A stretch of DNA of 64,000 nucleotides from Cyclobacterium plantarum. Lineage in GTDB: Bacteria; Bacteroidota; Bacteroidia; Cytophagales; Cyclobacteriaceae. Both the position numbers and the translations under genes were made by a program. The notes under the pieces were generated by a model. That model saw only the letters and a program-made list of their open reading frames with translations. It had not been told where the DNA came from and ran no database searches. Location: positions 50,107 through 114,106 of the forward strand of contig NZ_JAANYN010000008.1 of the NCBI RefSeq assembly GCF_011290685.1. The letters run 5' to 3'. This document shows, piece by piece, positions 1-5,978 of this stretch. Numbering within the stretch: the first letter of the stretch is position 1; each line of letters starts with the position of its first letter.

Positions 1-298
1 TCAATTGCCCACTGCTTTAGCTGTGGGCAACCTGGTATTTATGGAAAATTGGCTTTAGCCAAACCCTTTATCCATAACCTTTCAAACCCATATTTTACAA
101 TTTTATCCATTTCGGCTAAAGCCGGGGTAGGAAATTCCATTCCAGGGAATGGGCTATTTCCTATTGAGGAATAATCATTTGGAACAAGGAATTTTTTCCT
201 CAATTGCCCACTGCTTTAGCTGTGGGCAACCTGGTATTTATGGAAAATTGGCTTTAGCCAAACCCTTTATCCATAACCATTCAAATCCAAATTTCACA
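1..298. repeat. Hairpin-rich ~200-bp repeat, cluster 1 (one full unit and a half unit)
   Basis: Unit 1 spans 1-199 and is cut by or begins at the window edge. A second unit starts at 200 and loses similarity near 298. Each unit has three parts. H1 is an 8-bp stem TTGCCCAC/GTGGGCAA (5-12 with 23-30) around a 10-nt loop holding GCTTTAGC. H2 is the inverted pair GGCTTTAGCC (51-60) and GGCTAAAGCC (114-123). H3 is a short GGAA/TTCC hairpin near 146-161. The same unit recurs in clusters 2 and 3 around the transposase gene. Short reading frames here are only translations of the repeat. Confidence 0.9.
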
Positions 299-443
299 CA
301 TGAAAAGGAGGGGGCGCCTGGCCTCTTTTTCATTTGGTTTTACCTGATGCAAAATTCAAGATGAAAATCGGGGGACAATTATTTCCAGGACTTTTCCTGC
401 TTGCGGTATCATTTTTGCCTTGGAATAGAGAAACTGGAAAAAT

Positions 444-1445
444 ATGAATAAGACCATACTTTTGCACAATCGCCCGCAAGGAAAGCCAACCCTTGAAAAT
501 TTTAAAACGGTTGATGAGGAAGTTCCTACCGCAGAGGAAGGGGAGCTTTTGCTGAAAACCGTCTATGTATCCGTTGACCCTTATCTTCGGGGCAGGATGA
601 ATGATGCGAAATCCTATATTCCACCCTTCGAATTAAACAAACCAATTCAGTCTGGAATAATAGCCGAAGTGCTGGACTCCCACCTTCCGGATTTCAAAAA
701 GGGAGATTTTGTCTCCGGTATGTTGGCCTGGAAGGAGTTCCAGACCTCCACAGGCAAAGGGCTGAATAAGGTAGACCCTACGCTGGCAAAACTATCCAGT
801 TATTTGGGTATTTTGGGAATGACCGGGCTTACCGCCTATTTGGGATTGACGGAAATCGGAAAGCCAAAAGAAGGGGAGACCCTGGTGGTTTCCGGTGCTG
901 CCGGAGCCGTAGGAACCGTAGTCGGACAGATCGGGAAATTGCTGGGTTGCAAGGTGGTGGGCATTACCGGCAATGATGAAAAAGTAAAGTTACTTACCTC
1001 GACTTTTCATTTTGATCATGCTATCAATTACAAAACAACCCCGGATATGAAAGAGGCGATCAAAAGCACCTGTCCTGATGGGGTTGATGTTTACTTTGAT
1101 AACGTAGGCGGGGAGATATCAGATGCGGTATTGACAAATATCAATAAGTTTGCCCGATTGCCCGTTTGCGGTGCCATCTCACTCTATAATAAAACAGAGG
1201 TGCCAATGGGCCCCCGGTTGCAGCCCATACTCCTCACCAAAAGTGCCACCATGCGGGGATTTATCATCGGCGATTTTGCTTCCAAATTCCCATCAGCAAC
1301 CCGGCAATTGGCTGCCTGGCTAAAAGACGGAAAGCTACAATCCAGTGAAACCATTGTAGAAGGGTTTGACAATATTCCCCAAGCCTTTCTGGATTTGTTT
1401 GAGGGGAAAAATAAAGGGAAGATGGTTGTCAAGGTAGGAGAATAG
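444..1445 (+). CDS. NADP-dependent medium-chain oxidoreductase (enone/double-bond reductase type)
   Basis: A 333-residue zinc-independent member of the MDR superfamily, in the leukotriene B4 dehydrogenase / curcumin reductase branch. These enzymes reduce the C=C bond of alpha,beta-unsaturated ketones with NADPH in the cytoplasm. The N-terminal catalytic domain carries the family signature VSVDPYLRGRM near residue 44. The Rossmann domain has GAAGAVGT near residue 150, followed by the usual basic and aromatic cofactor-binding segment. The length fits the family. The gene stands alone between repeat cluster 1 and a convergent cupin gene, with 54 bp between the two stop codons. The substrate cannot be told from the sequence; detoxification of reactive enones is the usual role. 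Confidence 0.88.
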   Translation: MNKTILLHNRPQGKPTLENFKTVDEEVPTAEEGELLLKTVYVSVDPYLRGRMNDAKSYIPPFELNKPIQSGIIAEVLDSHLPDFKKGDFVSGMLAWKEFQTSTGKGLNKVDPTLAKLSSYLGILGMTGLTAYLGLTEIGKPKEGETLVVSGAAGAVGTVVGQIGKLLGCKVVGITGNDEKVKLLTSTFHFDHAINYKTTPDMKEAIKSTCPDGVDVYFDNVGGEISDAVLTNINKFARLPVCGAISLYNKTEVPMGPRLQPILLTKSATMRGFIIGDFASKFPSATRQLAAWLKDGKLQSSETIVEGFDNIPQAFLDLFEGKNKGKMVVKVGE

Positions 1446-1499
1446 CTGTAGCTTTTCCTGCCTGATACGGGGATATTTAAATGAGCAATATTAATGCGG

Positions 1500-1799
1500 T
1501 TATTCCCCTTGTGATAAAATACACAAGCTGTCTTCCATTGCCTCCACCGAATGGGTAATTTCAAGGGGAATGTCTACTTCCTCATATTGCTTCAGTTTCA
1601 AAACCCTGTCTTCTTCTTTGTAAATTACCGCCCCTTCCAAAACGGTCAATTTTGATACAGTATGGGCTTTGTGTTCTTTTAAAACCATCCCTTTAAGGAA
1701 CCCCATGACCAGCACCTTGAATCCGGTACCGTGATGGAGTGATTTTGCAATGGGATGATTGGCGGTTTTTAGTTCTTCTTTTATTTCTTTAATGGTCAT
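1500..1799 (-). CDS. Small cupin-domain protein
   Basis: 99 residues when started at the ATG at 1799 (MTIKEIKEEL). The open frame continues upstream to 1952, but that extension does not resemble a cupin. The sequence reads as a single conserved beta-barrel: an AHTVSKLTVLEGAVIY strand pair followed by a LKQYEEVDIPLEITHSVEA segment, the spacing of the two cupin motifs, with few metal-binding histidines. Small cupins of this kind often bind a small molecule or carry out simple isomerase or oxygenase chemistry; no specific reaction can be assigned. It is convergent with the reductase gene and followed upstream by repeat cluster 2. Confidence 0.7.
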   Translation of the reverse strand: MTIKEIKEELKTANHPIAKSLHHGTGFKVLVMGFLKGMVLKEHKAHTVSKLTVLEGAVIYKEEDRVLKLKQYEEVDIPLEITHSVEAMEDSLCILSQGE

Positions 1800-1984
1800 T
1801 GGGCTATGTTTTTTAGGTGTGTTTTTAATATGCTGTTCTTTTTGAATAATGCCAGGCGTTTTCAATTCGTAATACCAAGTTAAGAAAAAACGGCGGGATG
1901 TCTCCATTTTTAAAGTATATGCTATCTGGCCGGAAAAATGGGGGTCTCTCATTTTCGATCACATGCCCTGAATATTTGCCATTC

Positions 1985-2746
1985 CTCCATTTTGGCTAAA
2001 GCCTGGGTTCACAAGGCGCAATTCCAGGGAATGGGCTAAAGCCACATTCCTATTGAGGGTTAATTTTTTGAAACCAGGATTTTTCATCAATTGCCTACTG
2101 CTTTAGCTGTGGGCAACCTGGTATTTAAGGAAAATTGGCTTTAGCCAAACCTTTTATCCATCAACCTATCGAATCCATATTTCGCTATTCTATCCATTTC
2201 GGCTAAAGCCAGGGTACAGGGGGCTCAATTTCAAGGAATGGGCTATTTCCTATTGAGAAATAATCATTTGGAATCAGGATTCTTATAATCAATTGCCCAC
2301 TGCTTTAGCTGTGGGCAACCTGGTATTTAAGGAGAACTGGCTTTAGCCAAACCTTTTATCCATAACCTATCAAATCTAAATTTCGCTATTCTATCCATTT
2401 TGGCTAAAGCCGGGATCCAGGGGACTCGATTTTAAGGAATGGGCTATTTCCTATTGAGGAGTAGCCATTTGGAACCGAGAGTCTTTTAATCAATTGCCTA
2501 CTGCTTTAGCTGTGGGCAACCTGGTATTTAAGGAGAATTGGCTTTAGCCAAAACCTTTATCCATAAACCTATCGAATCCACATTTCGCTTTTTCATCTAT
2601 TTCGGCTAAAGCCAGGGTTCAGGGGGCTCAAATTCAAGGAATGGGCTATTTCCTATTGAAGAATAATCATTTGGAACCAGGATTTTTTACCTCAATTGCC
2701 TAATAGCTGTTGGCAACAAGGATATGTTAACCTCATTGGCTTAAGC
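1985..2746. repeat. Hairpin-rich ~200-bp repeat, cluster 2 (three full units plus partial ends)
   Basis: A partial unit (about 1985-2086) holds only the second half. It is followed by three head-to-tail full units at 2087-2288, 2289-2489 and 2490-2691 (202, 201 and 202 bp). A decayed unit then runs from 2692 to about 2746, shortly before the end of the transposase gene. In the decayed copy the GGCTTTAGCC arm has become the perfect palindrome GGCTTAAGCC. All units share one orientation with clusters 1 and 3. Confidence 0.9.
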
Positions 2747-2795
2747 CAAATCTACCCAAACAGGCAGTAATGATAAGCCAGGCCCCTTGAACACA

Positions 2796-3236
2796 TCATT
2801 TATCTTTAAACTGCTCAAATCCATATTTCTCAGTAAATTCCTCATATTCCTGCTGGAATGTTTTTTTTAGATGGTGCTCTTCCTGATTTCTAATATATGT
2901 TCTGACCATATCCATCCTGGATTCAGAAACAGAAATTGCAAAATATTCATCTTGCCATTCAAATTTCGCTCGCGTAAGTTTGTGTTTATTGATCCAAAAA
3001 GAAGACTCACCTTTGATCAATTGCATCAATTTTTGAATGTTTTGGTCAATACCCATTGATACCAGGCAATGACAATGGTCTGCATATCCGTTGATGTGAT
3101 CAATAAAAATCCCCTTCTTTACTGCGTTTTCCCTGATATGTGACCAAACTTTACTTCTCAAATTTTTTGAGTCAAGGAATGGTATCCGATTTTTGGTGCT
3201 CCAAATAAAATGGATATAAACCTTTACGAATGGCAT
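2796..3236 (-). CDS. REP-associated-type Y1 (IS200-like HUH) transposase
   Basis: A 146-residue single-domain Y1 transposase (Transposase_17 / IS200-like fold). The HUH metal-binding motif is H54-C55-H56 in ADHCHCLV. The catalytic tyrosine is probably Y114 in VRTYIRNQEEHH, a segment typical of REP-associated tyrosine transposases (RAYTs). The N-terminus (FVKVYIHFIWSTKNR) also matches this group. There is no accompanying TnpB gene. The gene is intact and lies between repeat clusters 2 and 3. RAYTs are single-copy domesticated relatives of IS200 transposases that act on dispersed hairpin repeats, so the flanking ~200-bp repeats are its likely substrates; that link is an inference. Confidence 0.85.
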   Translation of the reverse strand: MPFVKVYIHFIWSTKNRIPFLDSKNLRSKVWSHIRENAVKKGIFIDHINGYADHCHCLVSMGIDQNIQKLMQLIKGESSFWINKHKLTRAKFEWQDEYFAISVSESRMDMVRTYIRNQEEHHLKKTFQQEYEEFTEKYGFEQFKDK

Positions 3237-3331
3237 ATTAAAAACAGATGATGGTCATACTAATTTAACAAATCATTCGGAAAATTTGCTAACTCAATCT
3301 AATTAAAAAATCAAAAGCCTTTCATTTCATT

Positions 3332-4505
3332 AATTTTGGCTAAAGCCAGGGTTCACGGAGTTCAATTCCAAGGAATGGGCTATTTCCTATTGAAGAGTAT
3401 CCATTTGGAACCGAGAGTCTTTTAATCAATTGCCTAATAGCAGTAGGCATTTTGGATTTTATAGTCTCATCGGCTTTAGCCAAACCTTTTATCCATAACC
3501 TATCTAATTCCTTTTTTTCTATTTCATTCATTTCGGCTAACGCCTGGGGTAATTCTATTCCAAGGAATGGGCTATTTCCTATTGAAGAATAATCATTTGG
3601 AACCAGGATTTTTTTCCTCAATTGCCCACTGCTTTAGCTGTGGGCAACCTGGTATTTAAGGAGAATTGGCTTTAGCCAAACCTTTTATCCAAAGCCTTTC
3701 AAATCCAAATTTCGCTATTCTATCCATTTTGGCTAAAGCCGGGATCAAGGGGACTCGATTTTAAGGAATGGGCTATTTCCTATTGAGGAGTAGCCATTTG
3801 GAACCGAGAGTCTTTTAATCAATTGCCTACTGGTTTAGCTGTGGGCAACCTGGTATTTAAGGAGAATTGGCTTTAGCCAAAACCTTTATCCATAAACCTA
3901 TCGAATCCACATTTCGCTTTTTCATCTATTTTGGCTAAAGCCTGGGGTAATTCTATTCCAAGGAATGGGCTATTTCCTATTGAAGGCTAATCATTAGGAA
4001 CCAAGATCTTTTTCCTCAATTGCCTAATAGCTGTAGGCAACCAGGATATGCCAGCATAAATGGCTTTAGCCAAAATCTTTATCCATAACCTATCTAATTC
4101 CTTTTTTGCTATTTCATTCATTTCGGCTAAAGCCTGGGGTTTGTGATTTTTCTCTAAGGAATGGGCTATTTCCTATTGAGGAGTAGCCATTTGGAACCGA
4201 GAGTCTTGTAATCAATTGCCTACTGCTTTAGCTGTGGGCAACCTGGTATTTAAGGAAAATTGGCTTTAGCCAAACCCTTTATCCATAACCTATCAAATCT
4301 AAATTTCGCTATTCTATCCATTTTGGCTAAAGCCGGGATCCAGGGGACTCGATTTTAAGGAATGGGCTAAAGCCGCATTCCTATTGAGGAAAAATTATTT
4401 GGGACTAGGATTTTTTTCTCAATTGCCCACTGCTTTAGCTGTAGGCAATTAAGGTATTCAAGAATCAATGGCTTTAACCAAATCATTTATCCATAACCTC
4501 TCAAC
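3332..4505. repeat. Hairpin-rich ~200-bp repeat, cluster 3 (five full units plus partial ends)
   Basis: A partial unit (about 3332-3425) is followed by full units at 3426-3617, 3618-3818, 3819-4015, 4016-4211 and 4212-4418 (192-207 bp). A truncated unit runs from 4419 to about 4505, just before the terminator of the aldehyde dehydrogenase gene. Units differ by substitutions and small indels. The H1 stem is kept by paired changes: some units have CCCA opposite TGGG, others CCTA opposite TAGG. H3 occurs in two forms, one closing with GGAA/TTCC and one with GGAATG/CATTCC (for example near 4357-4383). Confidence 0.9.
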
Positions 4506-4514
4506 CGCCTATTA

Positions 4515-4554
4515 CCACAAAAAAGGCCTTCCATCCTCCGATGAAAAGCCTTTT
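4515..4554 (-). terminator. Rho-independent terminator of the ALS-ALDH operon
   Basis: Stem AAAAGGC (4521-4527) pairs with GCCTTTT (4548-4554). Read on the minus strand the hairpin is followed by a T run. It lies 21 bp past the aldehyde dehydrogenase stop codon, at the edge of repeat cluster 3. Confidence 0.75.
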
Positions 4555-4574
4555 AAATCTAATTTGAACCCTAT

Positions 4575-5978
4575 TTATGGTAACATTTTGCTCCTGAAAA
4601 CCATCAGCTTTTCCCTGGTCATGTCATGCATGGAGTGGGGGATGCCACCCAGGCCTTCTCCTGAGGCATCCCTGCCCCCAAAGGGCATCCAGTCTACCCG
4701 GAAGGCGGTATGGTCGTTGACCATGACGGCCGTGGCGTTCAGCTTTTGTACGGTATCCAGGGCCAGATCGATATCCTTGGTGAAAACGGCGGCCTGGAAA
4801 TGGTATTCCAGGCTATTGGCCAGCTCGATGGCCTTTTCCCTATCGGCATAGGAATAAACACAGACCACAGGGCCAAAGATTTCTTCTTTGGATACGCGGA
4901 CATCATGGGGAGGATTGAGCAATACCGTTGGTTCAAAACAGGTGTCGCCGATGCGCTTGCCACCGCAAAGCAGTTCAGCACCGCCGTCCACGGCTTCCTT
5001 CACCCATTCTTCTACCCGGTCCACTTCTCCGGTGCGGATCAGGGGGCCTACTTCGGTAGCCTCATCCAGGGGATCACCGACCTTTAGTTTTTTGGCCGCA
5101 GTAGCCATGTCCTGCGCCAGCTTTCTGGCAATTTTTTCATGCACAAATACTTTCTGCACCGATACGCAAACCTGTCCGGCATGGTAAAAGCCGCCTTTTA
5201 CCAGCAGGGGCAACATGTCTTCCAGATCTGCATCGTGTTCTACGATCACCGGAGCGGCGCCCCCATGCTCCAGTGCACAGCGGGTGCCAGGGGCCAGTTT
5301 GGATTTCAGGTACCAGCCGATTTTTCCCGAGCCGATAAAGGACAGAAAATTGACTCGCGGATCGGTGGCTAGTTTTTCGGTCTGCTCATTGGTACAAAGC
5401 ACCATTTGCACCCAACCTTCGGGGACGCCGGCCTCTTTTAAAATATCCACCAGTGCCTGGCAGGACAGGGGCGTGGTGCTGGCAGGTTTGATGATCACCG
5501 GACATCCTGCAGCGAAGGCCGTGACGGTCTGATGGACGATAAGGTTCAGCGGATGGTTGAAGGCGGAAATAGAGGTCACTACGCCTATGGGCTCCCGGAT
5601 GGTAAAGGCGATGCGGTTTACAGAGGCTGCGGTAAGCCCCATAGGAACTTGTTCTCCTTTCAGGTGAGAAATCTCTTCAGTGGCAATTTTCACTCCGTTT
5701 ATGGCCCGCATGACTTCTACTTTGGAATCTTTGTAGGGTTTGCCGCCTTCGCGGGCTGCGGTTTTGGTCAATTCTTCTACCTTGCCTTCCATAAGCTGAC
5801 GGGCTTTTTCCAGGATGGCAATTCTTTTGTAGGGCGGAATCCAGCCGGATTGGTCCTGGAATAAGGCATGCGCCTTTTGAATGGTTTTTTCCACCTCAGC
5901 TTCATCCATTAAGGGCAACTCACTGATCAGGCTTTGGTCATAGGGAGATGTTATTTTCAATTTTTTATCGTCACTCAT
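4575..5978 (-). CDS. Aldehyde dehydrogenase family protein
   Basis: A 467-residue NAD(P)-dependent aldehyde dehydrogenase. The oxyanion asparagine is in SAFNHPLN. The cofactor loop is GSGKIG, the general base glutamate is in LEHGG (about residue 236), and the nucleophile cysteine is in GQVCVS (about residue 269). The C-terminal EIFGPVV motif is present. The family oxidises an aldehyde to the acid in the cytoplasm. The start codon overlaps the stop of the upstream TPP enzyme by 4 bp (ATGA), so the two are translationally coupled. The aldehyde is unknown; the partner suggests a product derived from a 2-oxo acid. The gene is visibly richer in G+C than most genes in the window. Confidence 0.88.
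   Translation of the reverse strand: MSDDKKLKITSPYDQSLISELPLMDEAEVEKTIQKAHALFQDQSGWIPPYKRIAILEKARQLMEGKVEELTKTAAREGGKPYKDSKVEVMRAINGVKIATEEISHLKGEQVPMGLTAASVNRIAFTIREPIGVVTSISAFNHPLNLIVHQTVTAFAAGCPVIIKPASTTPLSCQALVDILKEAGVPEGWVQMVLCTNEQTEKLATDPRVNFLSFIGSGKIGWYLKSKLAPGTRCALEHGGAAPVIVEHDADLEDMLPLLVKGGFYHAGQVCVSVQKVFVHEKIARKLAQDMATAAKKLKVGDPLDEATEVGPLIRTGEVDRVEEWVKEAVDGGAELLCGGKRIGDTCFEPTVLLNPPHDVRVSKEEIFGPVVCVYSYADREKAIELANSLEYHFQAAVFTKDIDLALDTVQKLNATAVMVNDHTAFRVDWMPFGGRDASGEGLGGIPHSMHDMTREKLMVFRSKMLP

Follow-up and report, generated by a model that had tools for sequence, protein, structure and literature searches.

Introduction

The described systems closest to the one reported here are the paired-REP elements (REPINs) and bacterial interspersed mosaic elements (BIMEs) of E. 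coli and Pseudomonas, which are built from repetitive extragenic palindromic (REP) sequences and go with a REP-associated tyrosine transposase (RAYT, or TnpAREP, of class 2). In the parts of the literature drawn on here, a REP is joined to an inverted REP, copies are both tandem and dispersed, and a single conserved HUH-Y1 gene is flanked by REPs (PMC8266576, PMC6006769); the tyrosine motif of the class 2 enzymes is given as Y-x3-NP (PMC6006769). Our study concerns a stretch of 64,000 nucleotides (nt) from the Bacteroidota species Cyclobacterium plantarum (contig NZ_JAANYN010000008.1, positions 50,107 to 114,106; G000:C36:50107-114106 under our labels, where G, C and L denote genomes, contigs and loci), hereafter called the window. 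A Y1/HUH transposase gene lies near its left end amid arrays of a hairpin repeat. We consider it probable, at about 0.72, that the repeats are non-autonomous REPIN-like elements and that the enzyme encoded among them, a TnpA of subclass 1.2 type, is their cognate transposase.

The locus shares with REPINs and BIMEs the dimers of a REP and an inverted REP, dispersed and in tandem, and with RAYTs the position of the gene between inverted REP pairs of which the genome has further copies. In contrast, its enzyme is of class 1 (Y-x3-Q-x2-HH), without the Y-x3-NP motif, its foot reads T[C/G]AAT[T/A]G and not the GT[A/G]G of the canonical subclasses, each end has two hairpins, and the unit is about 130-180 bp long. 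A GGGCTTTAGCCC match in PMC2817692 is, in the portion of that paper used here, a Haemophilus REP with a GTAG foot.

In the sections of a 2018 survey (BMC Genomics 19:475) on which we rely, TnpA subclass 1.2 has the signature Y-x3-Q-x2-HH, about 146-148 amino acids (aa), low copy number and a home in Bacteroidetes, and is credited with no REP and generally with no terminal IS200 structures (PMC6006769). The window's gene agrees in signature, short protein, low copy and phylum (an assignment by signature, and not by placement in the published tree), whereas hairpins in its flanks and repeats are present. Among the open-licence papers listed in our searches, none dealt with a REP for subclass 1.2. 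The 2018 survey is reportedly the work of Quentin et al.

Two further groups invite comparison. Class 2.6 TnpAREP proteins occur in the same phylum, and the same sections of the survey describe 'atypical secondary structures' for them, which lack GT[A/G]G (PMC6006769); the window's enzyme belongs to another protein subclass than these Y-x3-NP proteins, and the genome also has two NP-type genes (on C22 and C31). Insertion sequences (IS) of the IS200/IS605 group (IS608, ISDra2), with their miniature inverted-repeat (MITE) and palindrome-associated (PATE) transposable derivatives, resemble the locus in the fold of the protein, in the IS200 model that it passes and in subterminal hairpins. Such IS are near-identical and multicopy, and in IS608 and ISDra2 the hairpins lie on the same strand at both ends. 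In contrast, the ends here are inverted double hairpins, the element has no second gene inside it, and the gene has undergone no recent multicopy expansion, with one close intact copy in G000.

Anatomy of the repeat

The original prediction, made by a model from the letters alone, placed nine full and five partial copies of one repeat in positions 1-4505, in a single orientation and three clusters, and a recount of the hairpins bore this out. It had assigned three hairpins to the unit; we found four, two followed by two inverted, and the partial copies, although present, are better described as left or right halves.

Each end of the element is a double hairpin. After the foot T[C/G]AAT[T/A]G comes an outer hairpin whose loop reads TTYA, then a stretch of about 20-25 nt and the inner hairpin GGCTTYAGCC; the opposite end has this kind of structure in inverted form. 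In the short form about 13 to 54 nt separate the inner hairpins, and in the long form the gene stands between the two ends. In the window, complete copies (n = 9, 160-176 bp) start with TCAATTGCC, end with CCTATTGA and run H1-H2-H3-H4, that is, TCAAT foot, outer H1, inner H2, inner H3, outer H4 and ATTGA foot (TATTGA after H4). One H1 reads TTGCCCAC-TGCTTTAGCT-GTGGGCAA and is followed after about 20 nt by H2 (TTGGCTTTAGCCAAA). H3 (TTTTGGCTAAAGCC) is the reverse complement of H2 and stands about 22-25 nt before H4, which is either GGAATG-GGCTAAAGCC-CATTCC or the shorter GGAATGGGCTATTTCC. The right half resembles the left half inverted, in the manner of a REP and its inverted REP. In each of the nine complete units 53-54 nt separate the H2 core from the H3 core, and the start-to-start spacing within arrays is 192-208 nt. 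The features of the region are listed below by position, with strand where assigned.

1-167, + strand: complete four-hairpin unit
200-295, + strand: left half (H1-H2), preceding the oxidoreductase gene
444-1952: host genes between an H1-H2 half and an H3-H4 half, namely a zinc-type oxidoreductase (444-1445, + strand) and a 150-aa open reading frame (ORF; 1500-1952, - strand)
1990-2056, + strand: right half (H3-H4, long H4 form), following ORF 1500-1952
2087-2256, + strand: complete four-hairpin unit
2289-2457, + strand: complete four-hairpin unit
2490-2659, + strand: complete four-hairpin unit
2692-3393, - strand: long form of the element, consisting of H1-H2 (2692-2747), transposase and H3-H4 (3334-3393), with halves as in the short units
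2692-2747: left half (H1-H2), left end of the transposase-bearing long form
2796-3236, - strand: Y1/HUH transposase, TnpA subclass 1.2 type, 146 aa (Pfam and NCBIfam)
3334-3393: right half (H3-H4), right end of the transposase-bearing long form
3426-3585, + strand: complete four-hairpin unit, H1 of TAATAGC type, H3 with one change
3618-3786, + strand: complete four-hairpin unit
3819-3983, + strand: complete four-hairpin unit
4016-4179, + strand: complete four-hairpin unit, H1 of TAATAGC type
4212-4387, + strand: complete four-hairpin unit, long H4 form
4419-4500, + strand: left half (H1-H2), at the right end of the array

Chance is excluded as the origin of the repeat, because all ten occurrences of GGCTTTAGCC and all twelve of GGCTAAAGCC in the 64 kb fall within 1-4374, and because TTTGGCTAAAGCC occurs 71 times genome-wide compared with 0 for the reversed control. 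A search of the genome with the pattern GGCTTTAGCCAAAN{20,45}GGCTAAAGCC gave two places on C31, each read on both strands; it missed the units of the window because their gap is longer.

The hairpins could also be RNA elements, acting as terminators or stabilising mRNA without any mobility. Positions 1-4600 contain 17 terminator-like matches, 10 of them at the inner hairpin H2, compared with 6.1 in shuffled sequences; the resemblance is mainly confined to these inner hairpins, and terminators were rejected as an identity. No Rfam family matched positions 1-5000 at gathering thresholds, the units are tandem and lie beside genes of either strand, and dispersed copies carry inverted feet at both ends, all of which makes an RNA role very improbable. 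We are equally sceptical of integron-like attachment sites, where hairpin blocks would separate gene cassettes moved by a site-specific recombinase. Such sites would explain hairpins in one orientation, with genes between the blocks that vary in content and order among species. Integron attC sites have the core sites RYYYAAC and GTTRRRY, and this pair was present in 0 of the 9 window units, a test that by itself has little power because the shuffled mean is 0.03 of 9 units. The attC candidate was rejected on the absence of core sites in these nine units, no search for an integron integrase having been made.

The transposase

As had been proposed, a single intact Y1/HUH gene stands amid the repeats at 2796-3236 (Pfam Y1_Tnp, PF01797, 96 bits), and it lies between a left and a right half, where other units have their short middle. 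The protein has the HUH motif H54-C-H56 and the tyrosine motif Y114-x3-Q118-x2-H121-H122 (YIRNQEEHH), and H54, H56, Y114, Q118, H121 and H122 are invariant across 14 aligned sequences (14 of 19 candidates were used; L143 and L148, with a stop, and L145, L146 and L150 were left out). All 14 members of this alignment (A2) match both the IS200 and the RAYT models at E <= 0.001, and the window's protein scores 63.7 bits with the NCBIfam IS200 model, above the cut-off of 55. The AlphaFold model, with a mean confidence (pLDDT) of 87 from the 14-row alignment compared with 48 from the single sequence, is nearest to the TnpA of ISDra2 and IS608 (E ~1e-8), and the REP-associated transposase 4er8 follows at 1.4e-5. 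Matches to Cyclobacterium sp. SYSU L10401 (95%), C. lianum (93%) and C. jeungdonense (83%) point to Cyclobacterium as the genus. The ratio of nonsynonymous to synonymous change (dN/dS) is 0.06-0.24 among four Cyclobacterium orthologues.

The suggestion that this is a RAYT-type system stood in one respect and fell in another. Its layout is REP/RAYT-like, with inverted hairpin pairs, tandem and dispersed copies and a gene flanked by the same structures. Identity as a true RAYT of class 2 was rejected on Y-x3-Q-x2-HH in place of Y-x3-NP, on a score of 29.5 bits with the NCBIfam REP_Tyr_transpos (RAYT) model, below its cut-off of 80, and on the foot, T[C/G]AAT[T/A]G and not GT[A/G]G.

Flanks of related genes across Bacteroidota

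Of 395 genomes sampled across the phylum, 137 had relatives of the transposase at E <= 1e-20. From 106 Y1 loci, 16 were dropped (no signature, short flanks or near-duplicates), and the remaining 90 non-redundant loci, with signature and full flanks, were divided at 50% identity to the window protein into 58 close and 32 distant relatives. GGCTTYAGCC stands within 150 nt upstream of 36 of the 58 close relatives compared with 21 of 436 control ORFs (p 6e-25), and GGCTRAAGCC stands downstream of 37 compared with 39 of the 436 controls (p 4e-20). This comparison is conservative because the control ORFs come from loci fetched for repeats or transposases. Strong hairpins occur on both sides of 20 of 58 close relatives, 10 of 32 distant relatives and 8 of 436 controls.

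The geometry of the ends is also shared. Downstream of the gene, 20 of 37 inner motifs had an outer hairpin within 75 nt, and upstream 23 of 37 had one; the distance between inner and outer hairpin was 19-29 nt in 40 of these 43. The stems differ and the feet are similar, with 23 of 43 matching [T/C][C/G/T]AAT against a background of 0.10. When the loops of close relatives are read toward the gene, TTYA outnumbers TRAA by 49 to 11 (p 8e-7), compared with 20 to 25 around control ORFs (n = 434). On a protein tree of the 90 loci plus 2 outgroup rows, the flank-motif label changes 9 times compared with 29.6 in shuffles, to which near-copies contribute. A test of the best hairpin per flank against shuffles gave no signal for the window's relatives (p 0.73 and 0.42 for the window gene), because window-type stems hold a mismatch. 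The recurrence of the pairing in many Bacteroidota suggests a home-grown mobile-repeat system on an enzyme family for which none has been reported.

The distant relatives bear other hairpins, which in several of them are of GGTTTAAACC type. Long CATAGCCCACGGTTTAAACCGTGGGCTATG-type hairpins flank several distant subclass-1.2 genes (flanks of L204, L205 and L207; intergenic in L257) and are possibly a second cognate family. In G165, a transposase gene lies directly before cas1 and cas2 (L153:1501-3316).

Dispersed elements and stem covariation

Two other genera of the family (G406, G484; G566, G520, G467, G586) have the same four-hairpin element, both singly and in short arrays. A compact form is found in the genus of G354, taken to be Flavobacterium from DNA matches to L135 (F. 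hydrocarbonoxydans) and called the second genus below. Eighteen dispersed elements, a non-random choice from a listing, were taken from G628, G593, G637, G602 and G636. On the left, 12 of 18 end in the foot T[C/G]AAT[T/A]G, and on the right 13 of 17 end in its complement, against a background of 0.004 per 22-nt window. Conservation ends at the foot on both sides, and the ten elements with both feet measure 128-133 bp.

For covariation, 29 of 35 units were kept after removal of near-copies, and 24 of these 29, from several genera, were used; L124, two of L126, L130 and one reading of L208, mostly diverged subfamilies, were left out. The H1 stem co-varies, with 28 double-change cells compared with 11.7 after shuffling, and a covariation score of 0.133 compared with 0.058.

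Empty sites and gene location

Two kinds of empty site were observed. G566 has a 286-bp stretch with four hairpins (L216:1362-1647) that G520 lacks; at the corresponding place in G520 the two flanks join at a single base (BLAST). Of the three further genomes of that genus, G586 and G547 carry different DNA between these flanks, and one flank is listed for G467. The insert includes tails beyond the hairpins. Beside the short element, at L216:1220-1340, lies another high-copy repeat of that genus (GTCATTCTGAG ... CAGAGTGAC). The second case is that of F. hydrocarbonoxydans (L135), in which a transposase gene with exactly inverted outer hairpins sits between genes that are close-set without it in other species; five of seven loci inspected gave both flanks, 64 to about 300 nt apart compared with 993-1032 nt in L135. 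From one empty site for the short element and one empty locus for the transposase-bearing one, we infer that the elements are mobile.

A rival reading is that of an ordinary IS200-like IS. The transposase and its ends would then move together, and the short units would be MITE-type, internally deleted relics, with no domestication of the enzyme. In favour of it, the protein passes the IS200 model, and the L135 gene with its exactly inverted outer hairpins is found where other species have an empty locus. Within Cyclobacterium, G000, G003 and G008 share one location of the gene, G002 and G010 have it elsewhere (these two places not compared with each other), and weak remnants of its 3' end lie at L037:11443-11508 (in an array; 22 aa, 68%) and L043:6994-7068 (at a single site; 25 aa, 76%). 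However, 27 of 30 family genomes have one match (E 1e-30), there are no runs of near-identical copies, and the ends are inverted where those of IS608 and ISDra2 lie on the same strand. Moreover, in the four second-genus genomes inspected (G595, G697, G354, G233) the gene is flanked by a 416-aa gene and a 261-283-aa gene, cobT- and cobS-like (Pfam on one), and this constant neighbourhood speaks for vertical keeping of the gene. We regard an ordinary IS as unlikely.

Distribution, copy number and points against the pairing

With a 201-bp unit as query, the genome gave 48 matches, at 43.8-54.6 kb on C36, 59-61 kb on C22, 27-34 kb on C37 and 413-423 kb on C31, and at single sites; the arrays of the window extend leftward to about 43.8 kb on C36. 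Six Y1_Tnp genes are present in the genome, two with Y-x3-NP and four with Y-x3-Q-x2-HH, and among the four only the window's gene lies within an array. The inner motif of the repeat was not found in the 14-15 kb fetched around each of the two Y-x3-NP genes (C22:895183, C31:548357).

Repeats had been expected to be commoner in genomes that have the transposase. Among 196 family genomes, 25 have the close gene and 171 do not, five with only distant relatives (E 1e-30) being counted as without. Exact TTTGGCTAAAGCC motifs averaged 11.8 (median 3) with the gene, compared with 1.4 (median 1) without (p 3e-6), and four or more copies were present in 12 of 25 compared with 9 of 171. The difference persists without the window's genus (p 1.6e-4) and among genomes of at least 4.5 Mb (p 1.2e-5). 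The second genus (150 genomes) gave medians of 24 with the gene (n = 20) and 2 without (n = 130; p 1e-7). All of these copy-number statistics ignore phylogeny. The expectation was borne out in the family; overall it held only in part, because the second genus is weak after size matching and there are exceptions in both directions.

Several observations weigh against the pairing, and these exceptions are among them. In the second genus, the medians are 26 (n = 15) and 17 (n = 18) for genomes of at least 4.5 Mb (p 0.07) and 3 (n = 5) and 1 (n = 112) for smaller ones (p 0.06). Five family genomes have the gene and zero exact copies of the tested motif, the nine gene-less genomes just mentioned hold four or more, and two Cyclobacterium genomes that lack a close gene, G006 and G007, give 17 and 21 matches. 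In the window's own genome, an intact close transposase is missing from three of the four main clusters, the window cluster being the sole holder, and the spacers between units are conserved, as expected from tandem duplication. The inner motif is absent upstream of 22 and downstream of 21 of the 58 close relatives, and the 32 distant relatives are generally without it and have no loop bias (TTYA 4, TRAA 3). H1 pairs with a double change number 4 compared with 3.4 in shuffles, 220 of 500 of which reach as many, and alignment A1 shows no variation in H2 and H3 because its rows were chosen by them. Lastly, the sole resolved insertion of a short element (286 bp) exceeds the four-hairpin core and sits in another high-copy repeat family, which might itself have caused the insertion; the tails and the adjoining repeat leave the mobile unit unsettled in this case.

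Some of these points would follow directly if the transposase were incidental, that is, if the arrays had spread by recombination, gene conversion or another enzyme and the gene had been caught in a repeat-rich region. The gene-less clusters of the same genome, the repeats of G006 and G007, the size-matched second genus and the conserved spacers all fit that account. Against it stand the flank geometry, the polarity of the loops and the association of motif with clade, which are found in many genomes away from the window locus, and we consider it quite improbable.

Proposed mechanism and significance

The sequences show directly the anatomy of the unit, the shared ends and their geometry in many relatives, the boundaries of elements in one other genus, and the two kinds of empty site. 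Based on the anatomy, shared ends and geometry, it is likely that TnpA and the elements belong together and work like RAYTs and REPINs. Subclass 1.2 thus probably serves a REPIN/RAYT-like system whose ends are double hairpins and whose elements are mobilised in trans. We infer the binding, cutting, strand, intermediate and trans action of TnpA as follows. When the region becomes single-stranded, as on the lagging strand, TnpA would bind the hairpins, and its tyrosine would cut at or near the feet. The freed unit would be moved or copied to other sites or beside an existing unit, giving head-to-tail arrays in one orientation, which unequal recombination may then lengthen and shorten. Like a RAYT, the enzyme would be retained as a conserved gene, mostly in single copy, and would act in trans.

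An orphan subclass of HUH enzymes would thus gain a probable substrate, and a class of intergenic hairpins found in many Bacteroidota would be offered an origin. Further, class 1 (IS200-side) enzymes would have a REP-like system of their own, separate from that of the class 2 RAYTs and distinguished by another foot and by two hairpins per end. The domestication of transposases into repeat-keeping enzymes could then be tested with a second, separate case.

Genes within the arrays

Among 11 Cyclobacterium array loci, genes lie in 7 of 40 H2-H3 gaps, and in 0 of 67 uninterrupted H4-H1 junctions, 0 of 61 H1-H2 gaps and 0 of 55 H3-H4 gaps. The independent H2-H3 cases are fewer than 7 because several are orthologues of one another, and the same scan gave 18 further gene-bearing gaps without one or more hairpins. 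This placement fits cargo between the ends of an element, and the genes at 444-1952 in the window may be such cargo. The content and order of array genes vary among Cyclobacterium species, and homologous recombination between repeats would also shuffle them. A broader proposal, which we put forward as doubtful, is that subclass-1.2 TnpAs are general REPIN-type enzymes of Bacteroidota with clade-specific double-hairpin ends (GGCTTYAGCC; GGTTTAAACC-type), and that in Cyclobacterium such ends also enclose host genes, the arrays acting as single-strand gene cassettes.

Other genes were noticed in the arrays. L037:11765-12229 (C36) and L039:6452-6916 (C22) look alike by eye and lie inside repeat arrays; of this pair, only L039:6452-6916 has a Pfam PIN match, and the two are possibly toxin-antitoxin cargo. 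In L040 (C37) and in L123-L125, L127 and L129 of several Cyclobacterium genomes, a diverged form of the repeat alternates with genes of 370-415 aa, and one of the three L040 genes tested against Pfam matches DUF4221.

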